DNA from: Oscillospiraceae bacterium
Lineage (GTDB): Bacteria; Bacillota; Clostridia; Oscillospirales; Acutalibacteraceae
Length of the DNA stretch: 64,000 nt
Direction of reading: 5' to 3'
Assembly (NCBI GenBank): GCA_902792985.1
Contig: CADBBT010000010.1
Coordinates: 19,666-83,665, forward strand
Of the stretch, positions 24,376 to 61,382 are shown in pieces. The stretch's first letter is position 1; each line of letters begins with the position of its first letter. A program made the translations under genes and the position numbers. Below the pieces are notes generated by a model. The model had not been told where the DNA came from. It searched no databases and was given only the letters and a program-made list of their open reading frames with translations.

Positions 24376-24524
24376 GCGGCGGGACAGCGCGGCGCAGCCG
24401 CGCAGAACGGAGCGCGGGAAAACGCACACTTTGCGCAAAGAAAGACTGCGCTTAAAGCGGGTTTTGGAGGCTTCGCGCACCGGGCGCTCCGGTGCATCGT
24501 GCGAAGCACGATGCGTCCCGCCGC
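24376..24524. repeat. Nested palindromic element E1 (outer stem plus three arms)
   Basis: The outer stem is GCGGCGGGAC at 24376-24385 paired with GTCCCGCCGC at 24515-24524. Inside: arm A at 24387-24403 (GCGCGGC, loop GCA, GCCGCGC); arm B at 24409-24490 (GGAGCGC paired with GCGCTCC around a long loop); arm C at 24494-24514 (GCATCGTGC, loop GAA, GCACGATGC), which abuts the outer stem. It lies between the 3' ends of topB and tatD. It shares the outer-stem core with elements at 49661 and 61227. The rest of the 395-base gap (24525-24696) shows nothing else recognisable. Confidence 0.8.
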
Positions 24525-24696
24525 CGGTTGACCGAAAAGCGAATGAAAAAAGCCCGTTCAGGCTGCTGCCTAACAAAACAGATACATCATCTCTGATCAT
24601 GAGAAAAAGAAAAGCGCTTTGCAAGCAGGAGAATTCCTGATTGCATCGCGCATTTTTCTTATGTTGCTTTGAAGTTGTAAAGCAGCGGCCCCCTTC

Positions 24697-25464
24697 TCAT
24701 CCGATCCCAAAAAGGAGTGCTGTATTCTCTCTGCACCGATCGATGAGCGTCTGCGCATCCTCACCGCGCACATCGGCGATCGTTGTCGCGACATACGCGA
24801 TCAGAGAAGAATCGTTGCGCTTTCCGCGAAACGGCACCGGCGCCATATAGGGGCAGTCCGTTTCCAGCATCAGCCGGTCTTGCGGCACGGCAGCGGCAAC
24901 GGCAAGCGGCTTTTTGGCGTTTTTGAACGTCACGGCGCCGCCGAGCCCGATATAAAGCCCCAGCTCCAGCAGTTCCTCCATCGTTTCCACCGAGCCGGAA
25001 TAGCAGTGCATCACGCCGCGCGGCCGGTGCTTTTTTAAAAGCGCGAGCGTGTCGGCGTGCGCCTCACGATCATGGATGATGACGGGTTTTCCGAGTTTGT
25101 TCGCAAGGATGAGCTGCCGCTCGAACGACTCGAGCTGCACTTCCTTCGGGATATCCCAGTAATAATCCAGGCCGATCTCCCCGACCGCGACCACCTTCGG
25201 GTGGCTGTAAAGCTTTTGCAGCGCGTCGTAATCCGCTTCGGTCGCGTCGGCGGCTTCCTCGGGATGGATGCCGATCGCGGCGTAAATGTAATCGAAACGC
25301 TCCGCAAGCGCGATGGAGGTGCGCGACGTGGCGAGCGTTGTGCCGCAGTTGATCACACCTGCAACGCCGTTTTCGGGCAAACGGGCTAAGAGCGCTTCGC
25401 GATCTTCGTCGAAGCGCTCATCATCATAGTGTGCGTGGGAATCAAAGATACCACAAAGGCTCAT
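24697..25464 (-). CDS. tatD: TatD-family metal-dependent deoxyribonuclease
   Basis: This codes for 255 residues. Metal ligands are visible: FDSHAHYD at the N-terminus, GEIGLDYYWD in the middle, PVIIHDREA, GVMHCYSG and LETDCPYMAP. TatD-type proteins are TIM-barrel 3'-5' exonucleases linked to DNA repair. It overlaps the end of metG by ATGA (25461-25464), and metG-tatD is a well-known order in Firmicutes (yabD in B. subtilis). Confidence 0.92.
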   Translation of the reverse strand: MSLCGIFDSHAHYDDERFDEDREALLARLPENGVAGVINCGTTLATSRTSIALAERFDYIYAAIGIHPEEAADATEADYDALQKLYSHPKVVAVGEIGLDYYWDIPKEVQLESFERQLILANKLGKPVIIHDREAHADTLALLKKHRPRGVMHCYSGSVETMEELLELGLYIGLGGAVTFKNAKKPLAVAAAVPQDRLMLETDCPYMAPVPFRGKRNDSSLIAYVATTIADVRGEDAQTLIDRCRENTALLFGIG

Positions 25465-27404
25465 CGGATCTTGCTCCCGTTCGGAATATCATCCACAAAG
25501 ATGACTTTCACATTGTCCTCGCTCACGTCGGCGGCAAGGATCATGCCGCAGCTTTCCACACCGCAGAGCACGGCGGGCTTGAGGTTGGAAACAACGATCA
25601 CCTTTTTGCCGATCAGGTCCGCGGGCTGATACCATTTTGCAATGCCGGACGCAACGGTGCGCGGCTTGCCGCTGCCATCATCCAGCGTGAGCTGCAGCAG
25701 CTTCTTTGCGCGTTTGACAGGCACGCAGTCTGTGATCTGCGCCACACGCAGATCAACTTTTGCAAAGTCGTCGATGCCGATCTTCGCAATGCCCTCGATC
25801 TCTTCGATCGCCTTTTCCTTCGCGGCGGCTTCCCTTTGCTTCGCTTCGATCTCGGCCATCATTTTTTCCGCGTCAATGCGCGCAAACAGCGGTTCCGGCG
25901 TGCCGACGGGATGCCCCAGCGGATAAGCGCCGAAGGAAGAGAGGGAGTCATAGCTCAGCTCGTCGCAGTTGATTTGTTCGCCGATCTTCTTTGCGGTTTC
26001 AGGCATGAACGGCGTGAACAGCACAGCGAGGAAACGGATGGATTCCGTGAGGTTATAAAGCACCGTGGAAAGTCTGCCCTTTTGCGCTTCGCATTTTGCA
26101 AGCGACCACGGCATGGTCTGGTCGATGTATTTGTTGCAAGCTTTTGCAAAGCTCATGATCGCGTCCACCGCGTCGGCAATGTGATAGGTCGCCATGCAGT
26201 CGTCCACACGCTGCACCGCAGAAAGCGCAGCTTCTTTGAGCGCAGGATCGAATTCATCATCCGCCTGATCGTTCACCGGCAGCACGCCGCCGAAGTATTT
26301 TTGCATCATGGCGATCGTGCGGTTGACAAGGTTGCCCAGCGTATTCGCAAGGTCGCTGTTGAAGCGTTCGATGATCGTGCTGTAGGTGATCGAACCGTCG
26401 TTCGCGTGCGGCATCTCGGAAAGCAGGTAATAACGCACCGCGTCCACGCCGAGCAGGTCGCAAAGATCGTCCGCGTAGATCACATTGCCCTTGGATTTGC
26501 TCATCTTATCCTCGCCGAACAGCAGCCACGGATGGCCGTAGACCTGCTTCGGAAGCGGCTCGCCGAGCGCCATCAGGATGATCGGCCAGTAGATCGTATG
26601 GAAGCGCACAATGTCTTTGCCGATGATGTGCACGTCCGCCGGCCAGTATTTTTTATAGAGCTCGCCGCTGCCGTCGGGGTCGTAGCCGAGGGCGGTGATG
26701 TAGTTTGAAAGCGCGTCGATCCAGACATAGATCACATGATCGGGATCGAAGGTGACGGGGATGCCCCATTTGAACGAGGTGCGCGAAACACAAAGGTCCT
26801 GCAGGCCCGGCTTGATGAAGTTGTTGAGCATCTCCTTCTTGCGGCTTTCGGGATAGATGAAGTTTTCGTTTTGCTCAATGTAATCTTCCAACTGCTTTTG
26901 ATACTTTGAAAGGCGCAGGAAATACGCCTCCTCCTTGGCCGGATGGCATTCGCGGCCGCAGTCGGGGCATTTGCCGTCTTTGAGCTGCGACGACGTCCAG
27001 AACGATTCGCACGGCGTGCAGTACATGCCCTCGTACTCGCTCTTATAGATATCGCCCTGTTCATAGAGCTTATTGAAGATCTTCTGCACGGCTTTTTCGT
27101 GGTAATCGTCTGTCGTGCGGATGAATTTGTCGTAAGTGGTGTTCAGCCGGTCGCAGATCGCGCGGATCTCCCCCGCAACCTTGTCCACATATTCCTTCGG
27201 GCTGACGCCGGCGCTTTTTGCGTATTCGTCGATCTTTTGGCCGTGCTCATCGGTGCCGGTCAAAAAGAACACGTCGTAGCCCTGCAGACGTTTATAGCGC
27301 GCAATGGCGTCGGTCAGCACGATCTCGTAGCTGTTGCCGATATGAGGCTTGCGCGAGGTATAGGCGATCGCGGTCGTAATATAAAACTTTCCTTTTTCCA
27401 TCAT
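25461..27404 (-). CDS. metG: Methionyl-tRNA synthetase
   Basis: This codes for 647 residues. Adjacent ATGs at 27404 and 27401 follow AAAGGAG; the second has the better spacing, and the open frame further upstream lacks a site. Class I signatures: KPHIGNSYE (HIGH box) and KMSKSKGN. A zinc knob CTPCESFW...CPDCGREC is present. A C-terminal tRNA-binding (Trbp111-like) domain covers about residues 540-647 (DFAKVDLRVAQI). It charges tRNA-Met. No T-box or riboswitch precedes it; it starts 17 nt after the glucosaminidase gene and is probably read from that promoter. Confidence 0.97.
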   Translation of the reverse strand: MMEKGKFYITTAIAYTSRKPHIGNSYEIVLTDAIARYKRLQGYDVFFLTGTDEHGQKIDEYAKSAGVSPKEYVDKVAGEIRAICDRLNTTYDKFIRTTDDYHEKAVQKIFNKLYEQGDIYKSEYEGMYCTPCESFWTSSQLKDGKCPDCGRECHPAKEEAYFLRLSKYQKQLEDYIEQNENFIYPESRKKEMLNNFIKPGLQDLCVSRTSFKWGIPVTFDPDHVIYVWIDALSNYITALGYDPDGSGELYKKYWPADVHIIGKDIVRFHTIYWPIILMALGEPLPKQVYGHPWLLFGEDKMSKSKGNVIYADDLCDLLGVDAVRYYLLSEMPHANDGSITYSTIIERFNSDLANTLGNLVNRTIAMMQKYFGGVLPVNDQADDEFDPALKEAALSAVQRVDDCMATYHIADAVDAIMSFAKACNKYIDQTMPWSLAKCEAQKGRLSTVLYNLTESIRFLAVLFTPFMPETAKKIGEQINCDELSYDSLSSFGAYPLGHPVGTPEPLFARIDAEKMMAEIEAKQREAAAKEKAIEEIEGIAKIGIDDFAKVDLRVAQITDCVPVKRAKKLLQLTLDDGSGKPRTVASGIAKWYQPADLIGKKVIVVSNLKPAVLCGVESCGMILAADVSEDNVKVIFVDDIPNGSKIR

Positions 27405-60529: not shown

Positions 60530-61222
60530 TTGAGGCAGATTTTTTATAAGAAAGTAATGGCGGCGGCACTGGCGCTGCTTTTGATCGTTGGGATCGGCGC
60601 GTTTTCGCAAAAAATCGATGAAGAGGCAGGCGCGCCCATCGCGGTGCTCTCTCAGCTCGGCACACGCGGGCAGGAGGTGCGCGCGATCCAGACAAAGCTC
60701 AAATCCCTCGGCTTTTACACGGGCGCCGTGGACGGAATTTTCGGCACGGGCACACAAAAGGCGGTGCGCGCGTTTCAAAAGAGCGTTGGGCTGAAAGCGG
60801 ACGGCATCGCCGGACAAAAGACGCTGCTTTATCTCGGGCTCGACGGTTCGTCCTCATCCGGCGGCACAAGCAGCAGCGATCTGACGCTGCTTGCAAAGCT
60901 CATTGCCGCCGAAGCGCGCGGCGAAAGCTACACCGGGCAGGTCGCCGTGGGTGCGGTCGTGCTCAACCGGGTGGCGCACGCGTCGTTTCCGGACACGATC
61001 GCCGGCGTGATCTATCAAAAAGGCGCGTTTTCGTGCGTGAACGACGCCAACTGGAACGTTGCCCCGAACGCGACCTCGCGCAAGGCGGCGCAGGACGCGA
61101 TGAACGGCTGGGATCCGAGCGGCGGCGCGATCTACTATTACAATCCGGCGAAAACCGCCAACGCGTTCATGTGGTCGCGGCCGGTCATCGTGGTGATCGG
61201 CAACCACAGGTTTTGCAGGTAG
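60530..61222 (+). CDS. sleB: Spore cortex-lytic enzyme SleB
   Basis: This codes for 230 residues from TTG 60530 (AAAGGA site, 10-nt gap). It has a signal peptide (residues 8-26), an N-terminal peptidoglycan-binding module ([31 protein letters not shown]), and a C-terminal Hydrolase_2 domain: [20 protein letters not shown] with the candidate catalytic Glu and [24 protein letters not shown] end. SleB is a lytic transglycosylase that cuts cortex peptidoglycan with muramic-delta-lactam during germination. The usual partner ypeB is absent nearby. It follows polA, with E5 between. Confidence 0.92.
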
Positions 61223-61226
61223 CACA

Positions 61227-61382
61227 CCCCATTTTTTGCCGCGGCGGGGGCGGGACGCGCGGCAAAGCCGCGCTTTGGAGCGCCGGACGAACGTTATTTC
61301 TTTCAGCGGCGCGGTTTGCGCTCCATGCGCCGCGTGCCTGCGGCACGCGGCGGTCCCGCCCCCGCCGCGGCAAAAAATGGGG
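61227..61382. repeat. Nested palindromic element E4 with a 30-bp perfect outer inverted repeat
   Basis: Positions 61227-61256 are the exact inverse complement of 61353-61382 (30 bp, ending in GGGGGCGGGAC and its complement). Arm A 61257-61273 (GCGCGGC, AAA, GCCGCGC); arm B 61277-61324 (GGAGCGC with GCGCTCC); arm C 61328-61352 (CGCCGCGTGCC, TGC, GGCACGCGGCG). Arms A and C abut the outer stem with no spare base. E1 has the same arm A stem with another loop and the same arm B stem. It lies between the converging ends of sleB and pduL. Confidence 0.88.

Follow-up and report, generated by a model that had tools for sequence, protein, structure and literature searches.

Branched palindromic repeats behind gene 3´ ends in an Oscillospiraceae genome: a candidate family of mobile structured elements

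A window of 64,000 nucleotides from an uncultured gut bacterium of the Oscillospiraceae (GenBank assembly GCA_902792985.1, contig CADBBT010000010.1, positions 19,666 to 83,665 of the forward strand) contains four palindromic elements, E1 to E4, in each of which an outer stem encloses three hairpins. We favour, with some reserve, the explanation that they belong to a family of non-autonomous mobile palindromic repeats, REPIN-like in plan with a structured spacer, which has neither a GTAG or CGTC tag nor an adjacent gene for a repetitive extragenic palindrome (REP)-associated tyrosine transposase (RAYT). Whole units with near-identical stems recur at unrelated sites, the units sit behind gene 3´ ends, and their presence or form differs between related species at the same site, a difference compatible with gain or with loss. 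The mobility itself we infer.

Anatomy and copies of the elements

The RNA folds of E1, E2, E3 and E4 each consist of the outer stem and three arms, and for none of the four did any of 200 dinucleotide shuffles fold as well. The fold z-scores given below were taken against these shuffles, with E4 folded after its outer stem had been trimmed, and the E-values are those of matches to a covariance model, R1.

E1, 24376..24524, no strand: three-armed element; outer stem 24376-24385/24515-24524, arm A 24387-24403, long middle arm ~24408-24491, arm C 24494-24514; fold z -4.7; R1 match E 6e-7
E2, 49661..49769, no strand: three-armed element; outer stem 49661-49670/49760-49769, arm A 49671-49691, middle arm 49692-49734, arm C 49737-49759; fold z -12.4; R1 match E 6e-8
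E3 core, 55346..55480, no strand: three-armed; outer stem 55346-55361/55465-55480; fold z -5.4; R1 match only E 0.007
E3 extra left hairpin, 55316..55344, no strand: 13-bp stem, one base off the outer stem
E3 extra right hairpin, 55481..55503, no strand: 10-bp stem, abutting the outer stem
E4, 61227..61382, no strand: three-armed element; 30-bp outer stem 61227-61256/61353-61382, arm A 61257-61273, middle arm 61276-61325, arm C 61328-61352; fold z -8.2 (outer stem trimmed); R1 match E 2e-4

The initial annotation had placed E1 to E4 at these positions as outer stems enclosing three hairpins, and both the sequence and the folds bear this out. It was also right about the outer-stem core shared by E1, E2 and E4 (GGCGGGAC/GTCCCGCC), the arm stems GCGCGGC/GCCGCGC and GGAGCGC/GCGCTCC common to E1 and E4, and the stacking of the outer arms of E2 and E4 on the outer stem without a spare base. 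The outer arms are 100% complementary over 30 bp in E4 and 16 bp in E3. Absent from that account were the two additional hairpins that flank the E3 core and make E3 an element of a five-armed kind, and the orientation of the E4 middle arm, which, read by eye, is opposite to that of the E1 middle arm.

Further copies were found in the source genome of the window (G000, 2.6 Mb in 90 contigs) with both a topology scan and the covariance model. The scan covered 830,287 bases (32%) of G000, including the window; this sample was non-random, several contigs having been picked for already having matches in an earlier search. To qualify, a site needed an outer stem of 7 bp or more, a hairpin of 5 bp or more no further than 3 bases from each foot, and stems adding up to at least 24. 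There were 34 matches at this threshold, compared with a peak of 21 in three dinucleotide shuffles of the same stretches, and 31 of them were retained as elements; C1:653 and C5:108576 were excluded as an AT-rich repeat of another kind, and C1:96594 as weak and partly inside a called gene. R1 added E3 and five elements in the same stretches (C5:50711, C5:64701, C5:117603, C8:22594 and C8:48183), E3 having been missed by the topology scan because one of its arms has a long loop. Extrapolation from this non-random sample suggests perhaps a hundred copies per genome. Short-class copies on contigs C56 and C68 sit among ordinary genes. An exact-core pattern was found at 13 places in G000, and its matches at one place each in 5 of 146 other genomes of the order were judged unrelated by eye.

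Middle-arm lengths cluster at 23-28 and 50-63 bases, with some in between and four retained ones at 89-101, and both arms abut the outer stem without a spare base in 14 of the 31 elements. The architecture can also be recursive, in that a three-armed element forms the middle arm of a larger three-armed one (L144:782-954, L141:1463-1618, and L048:3037-3129 with its flanks); at L144:782-954 the outer stem encloses one hairpin, a complete three-armed core and a second hairpin. An extra hairpin of at least 7 bp lies within 8 bases on both sides of 9 of the 31 elements, on one side of 8 and on neither side of 14, while a random intergenic point has a left-side hairpin in 12 of 502 control trials. 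Arm-like hairpins occur mostly in multi-armed clusters, with few possible lone ones seen by eye, such as C5:86894.

Base pairing and variation among related genomes

An alignment of the long and short classes made with MAFFT was discarded, the arms having been mixed up, and a short-class covariance model was used instead. Among 15 short-class sequences from three species, 98.9% of the cells were paired and 17 of the 38 pairs had changed on both sides, with 41 double-change cells against 5 single-sided and 6 unpaired ones. This covariation is strong and beyond chance: none of 500 shuffles scored as high, and shifting the structure abolished it. Double changes occurred in all 38 pairs among 115 R1 matches, a set in which both strands of many elements are counted and the alignment is fitted to the structure. 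When 65 distinct elements were taken with one strand each, 2,308 of 2,400 cells were Watson-Crick, 31 G-T, 21 A-C and 40 other, in an alignment that is fitted to the model and may favour Watson-Crick cases. An RNA is expected to retain more G-U pairs. The near-exact Watson-Crick pairing with few G-T pairs thus suggests that the relevant form may be DNA, as single strands or extruded hairpins, rather than RNA.

The loops behave differently from the stems: of the pairwise comparisons among nine short-class copies of G000, 80 of 2,664 show a difference in stems (3.0%) and 149 of 411 in loops (36%). Pairs of reverse-complementary loops are weakly in excess; out of 2,000 shuffles, 93 reached the value seen in the middle arm, 658 that of arm C and 634 that of H2, and no such pair was found in arms A and H1.

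The elements were then compared with those of G169 (also G180, one genome), the sister genome of G000, of which 318,570 bases were read, and of G004, another species of the same genus with a pheT 90% identical, of which about 331 kb was scanned. Identity in the large aligned blocks listed for G000 and G169 falls mostly within 88-94%, the extremes being 82 and 97. At six sites an element is present in both genomes (C3:60483, C8:99307, C10:44041, which is E1, C10:80892, which is E4, L018 and L020), at five of them in the same orientation. The sixth, E4, is inverted in G169 relative to its flanks within the same outer stem, with an interior identity of 0.13 direct and 0.98 inverted; G004 agrees with G169 (0.58 direct, 0.10 inverted). 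Because the 30-bp arms are identical, misassembly of short reads could in principle have produced this inversion; G004 nevertheless shares the G169 orientation. More generally, the elements may break short-read assemblies, as four R1 matches are listed within the first 150 bases of G169 contigs (C66, C24, C17 and C45). Among the smaller differences between G000 and G169 were a double change in arm A at C3:60483, an arm loop of CCT in one and AGG in the other at C8:99307, and three differences in the 149 bases of E1, all in the middle-arm interior and unpaired in the centroid fold. C3:60483 (interior identity 0.84), C8:99307 (0.92) and L020 (0.57) are not more conserved than their flanks. As judged from these alignments, constraint is possible for some elements and not established for all.

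In G004, for sites with pairable flanks, which most other elements did not have in the sample, E3, E4, C5:34515, C8:99307 and C3:117234 have an element in both genomes with arms that differ in sequence, length or class. The E3 site of G004 has the same GGCGGCGAAAC outer stem with other arms, and the element at C3:117234 is of another class. E2, C8:111438 and C16:4306 have no element at the paired G004 site, the syntenic gap of E2 containing a single hairpin with a T run four bases behind; at C8:111438 the G169 site has no element either. The G004 element at G4C8:7527 has no G000 counterpart at the paired site, nor does the weak scan match at G4C1:36658, whose site was placed by R1 at C1:36789-36873.

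R1 matched 7 of 34 genomes of the genus. With at most 130 candidates scored per genome and both strands counted, the numbers of matches are lower bounds: at least 62 in G000, 64 in G169, 92 in G004, 4 in G002, 3 in G175, and 1 each in G005 and G171. The matches listed in G002, G175, G005 and G171, together with elements in G168, G011 and G165, have the topology of E1 to E4 and another sequence. A relaxed sequence pattern was noisy in the genus, its backward control being often nearly as high (34 vs 14 in G000). The topology scan gave five matches in 100 kb of G002, three of which form one family (outer stem GCGGGGAGGCG), two in 100 kb of G175, one of them convincing, one in 100 kb of G001 that consists of GTAG-tagged hairpins, and a weak one in 40 kb of G026. 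G009 (80 kb), G015 (40 kb), G010/G016 (40 kb), G013 (20 kb) and E. coli K-12 (50 kb) had no match, and shuffles of each scanned stretch gave zero matches. A class-level relative, G533, carries two adjacent three-armed elements. With a second model, R2, 2 of 391 genomes of the class matched (G000 and G533), up to 10 candidates having been scored per genome, so that misses are weak. Plasmids and viral contigs, a phage collection not being covered, gave no match to the short class.

Placement, mobility and rival explanations

Independent gene calls, made with a simple script of our own rather than a standard gene finder, confirmed that all four elements of the window lie between converging 3´ ends, at 24301 (+) and 24697 (-) for E1, 49634 and 49801 for E2, 55218 and 55619 for E3, and 61222 and 61586 for E4. 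The initial annotation had counted elements in four of eight convergent gaps of the window; the four with an element stood, and seven convergent pairs rather than eight were called, no gene having been called in the first 3.4 kb. Among the called intergenic gaps of at least 120 bases in the scanned stretches, scan elements were found in 17 of the 39 convergent gaps, in 12 of the 146 tandem ones and in 1 of the 72 divergent ones (Fisher test, convergent vs tandem, p 1.1e-6). When E3 and the five elements found with R1 were included, the counts were 21, 14 and 1 (p 1.2e-8). Position between converging genes, as initially described, is thus a strong preference and a non-random one, and not a rule, since 12 of the 31 scan elements lie between tandem genes. 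In tandem gaps, 11 of 12 scan elements are closer to the upstream 3´ end. The placement fits insertion that spares promoters and genes.

The bacterial interspersed mosaic elements (BIMEs) of enterobacteria are clusters of inverted REP hairpins behind genes, with proposed gyrase and IHF sites; the present elements are also hairpin clusters behind genes and, unlike BIMEs, contain no REP units. Small inversions associated with hairpins in plastid DNA reportedly leave the loop or interior of a palindrome inverted between relatives; unlike these, the 30-bp arms of E4 enclose 96 bases that include three hairpins. REP dimers or REPINs consist of two inverted hairpins and a spacer that can form one larger fold, some with structured spacers or inside longer palindromes (PMC3116915, PMC3733652). 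They are described as repetitive and extragenic, located mostly between convergent or unidirectional genes near 3´ ends, with compensatory changes, and divided into a GTAG super-family, associated with RAYT, and a CGTC super-family (PMC3116915, PMC3733652). The present elements resemble REPINs in forming two inverted hairpins in one larger fold and in being extragenic, behind 3´ ends. They differ in that none of the 31 has GTAG or CGTC in the 8 bases of the outer stem that adjoin an arm, 14 of 31 have no unpaired base at either foot, the middle is occupied by a full third hairpin, the plan nests into five arms, and no element lies beside the RAYT-like genes examined in G000 and G169. By this analogy, they are REPIN-like in plan and would not be classed as REPINs. 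The organelle palindromes of Volvox carteri have loops of 3-5 nt, are intergenic, are inserted into one another and are considered selfish (PMC2670323). They resemble the present elements in the nesting of short palindromes into larger ones and differ in being organelle DNA, AT-rich in mitochondria (PMC2670323), while ours have a fixed three- or five-armed plan, a bacterial chromosome as location and few lone arms, if any. Among the titles and abstract openings listed by searches of open-licence papers, no description of this plan in bacteria was recognised.

Among the functions proposed in the initial annotation, a putatively mobile structured repeat is the best supported. What is conserved in the family is a branched palindrome, an outer inverted repeat that encloses three hairpins and around which two more hairpins and another stem are sometimes added, and its relevant form in the cell would be single-stranded DNA or extruded hairpins. 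By analogy with REPINs, the elements would be copied or moved by a trans-acting enzyme that recognises hairpins in single-stranded DNA, and hairpin tips may be processed. As to miniature inverted-repeat transposable elements, a terminal inverted repeat is present, and no target duplication was seen by eye in the listed flanks.

Several results weigh against a mobile family. A search for clean empty sites that carry a target duplication gave none, nor did any longer form with these ends turn up in the samples of G000 (830 kb) and G004 (about 331 kb), the sole candidate, of 5.6 kb, joining two different elements. Y1_Tnp matches are present in 7 of 9 genomes; no scan match of at least 23 was found around the RAYT-like genes of G000 (L201, 7 kb) and G169 (L212, 5 kb). 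At the loci examined nothing thus links a RAYT to the elements as their mover, a result compatible with a RAYT that acts from elsewhere. The conservation of E1 and E4 could mean selection, as identity to the sister genome is 146/149 in E1 and 64/77 and 162/174 in its flanks, and 154/156 in E4 and 193/203 and 367/400 in its flanks. Finally, a single mobile family leaves unexplained why more distant genomes have this topology with unrelated sequences. The topology that unrelated families share may go back to one kind of mover, to selection by the host or to a mutational process.

SbcD is a palindrome-cutting nuclease. Its match was below the family cut-off in G000, G169, G004, G001 and G013 and above it in G002. 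SbcD status was rejected as an explanation of element presence because G002, above the cut-off, has elements, while G001 and G013, below it, gave neither an R1 match nor such an element (100 kb and 20 kb scanned).

DNA structures that serve the host in convergent gaps are an unlikely alternative. They could, for example, be cruciforms that take up supercoils, offer binding sites to gyrase or a nucleoid protein, or shield the two facing transcription units from each other, as proposed for BIME/REP. The convergent preference (21/39 vs 14/146 tandem gaps, p 1.2e-8), the conservation of E1 and E4 above that of their flanks and the recurrence of the topology with other sequences in more distant species all argue for such a role, while 18 of 39 convergent gaps have no element found, presence or form varies between related species at the same site, some elements are no more conserved than their flanks, and placement at 3´ ends is also expected if insertions avoid promoters. 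We think it improbable that the middle arm acts as an intrinsic terminator in both directions, which would make the element a terminator module shared by facing genes. The ends of the middle arms are polar in the expected sense, A-left and T-right (left, A 76 and T 19; right, T 70 and A 12), as are, by eye, those of the sequence-unrelated G002 family, yet by a simple criterion of our own only 8 of 31 elements have a hairpin followed by Ts (4 forward and 5 reverse, 1 of these being both). Moreover, a separate intrinsic terminator lies between gene and element at 21 of 48 3´ ends that face an element, and the 18 convergent gaps in which no element is known have a terminator at 14 of their 36 3´ ends; because separate terminators are similarly frequent with and without elements, the elements do not replace them, and a role in termination is not supported by this simple count.

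A purely mutational origin, in which branched palindromes arise and become perfect through palindrome correction, template switching or hairpin-tip repair, with neither selection nor a dedicated enzyme, strikes us as decidedly improbable. It would suit the near-perfect stems with hypervariable loops, the inversion of E4 as a whole, the CCT/AGG loop change at C8:99307 and the single topology across unrelated sequences, and it leaves unexplained the near-identical full units at many sites; the excess of reverse-complementary loops is weak (93 of 2,000 shuffles as high in the middle arm). Scarcely probable at all is a structured RNA, in cis or trans, that keeps a cloverleaf fold, an option from the initial annotation that is disfavoured. 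That none of 200 shuffles folds as well as E1 to E4 and that covariation is strong would agree with an RNA; against it, G-T pairs make up 1.3% of the cells and are hardly commoner than A-C pairs (31 and 21 of 2,400), E4 is inverted in place between species, and no Rfam family reached the gathering score over the elements in a search of the whole window. Searches at a lower threshold (window 49600-61450 and five loci) gave only sub-gathering matches over the elements.

Beyond the mobile family preferred here, we offer as a tentative possibility a broader proposal: gut Clostridia may carry branched palindromes defined by shape and not by sequence (an outer stem, three abutting hairpins and recursive nesting) in species-specific families. 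These would exist in the cell as extruded or single-stranded DNA, invert where they stand, renew their tips quickly while the stems are restored exactly, and be spread by a hairpin-processing enzyme. If this view of the elements is right, bacterial palindromic repeats extend from tagged hairpin pairs to untagged, recursive multi-armed structures, the elements document in nature how stems are repaired, loops turn over and DNA inverts in place, and cruciform-like DNA in these cells and the copying enzyme become testable questions.

Neighbouring genes and other repeats

The gene preceding E1 is presumably that of topoisomerase III, and the one preceding E3 we take to be pheT; E4 is located behind a cell-wall hydrolase gene (Pfam). 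The protein beside E1 is 98% identical to that of the goat-rumen Clostridia metagenome-assembled genome RGIG3704, which is the sister genome G169/G180. Two kinds of pheT occur in the genus, 75-90% (L101-L106, L114, L116) or ~31-34% (L120-L129) identical to that of the window, which suggests, as a reading of the sequences, gene replacement in part of the genus.

A second repeat family of ~230 bp, with an AT-rich interior and hairpin ends of the CCCTCCCC/GGGGAGGG or CTTCCCC type, was noted at L031:653-877 and L048:8576-8810. Similar letters occur in L323, and the stretch that follows pheT in G169, facing the E3 site, is filled with similar sequence and a CACCGGCATTCGCCGGTCCC tandem repeat. Between two tandem genes of the window, at 60313-60474, there is a 45-base imperfect inverted repeat (76%), and similar letters (ACCCACTGATTCA...) adjoin elements elsewhere.

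RAYT genes of related genomes are flanked by inverted pairs of GTAG-tagged hairpins (L209:2908-2996, which equals L200:1852-1940, and L206-L208), one of which the topology scan detects as a two-hairpin element. GTAG-tagged REP-type hairpins (GGGCGGCCANTGGCCGCCC) next to CTAC were also seen at L036:7411, L041:11660, L045:4812, L047:14850, L053:4178 and L065:17773, and the RAYT-like gene of L201 contains a motif similar to the GGGCGGCCANTGGCCGCCC hairpin family.

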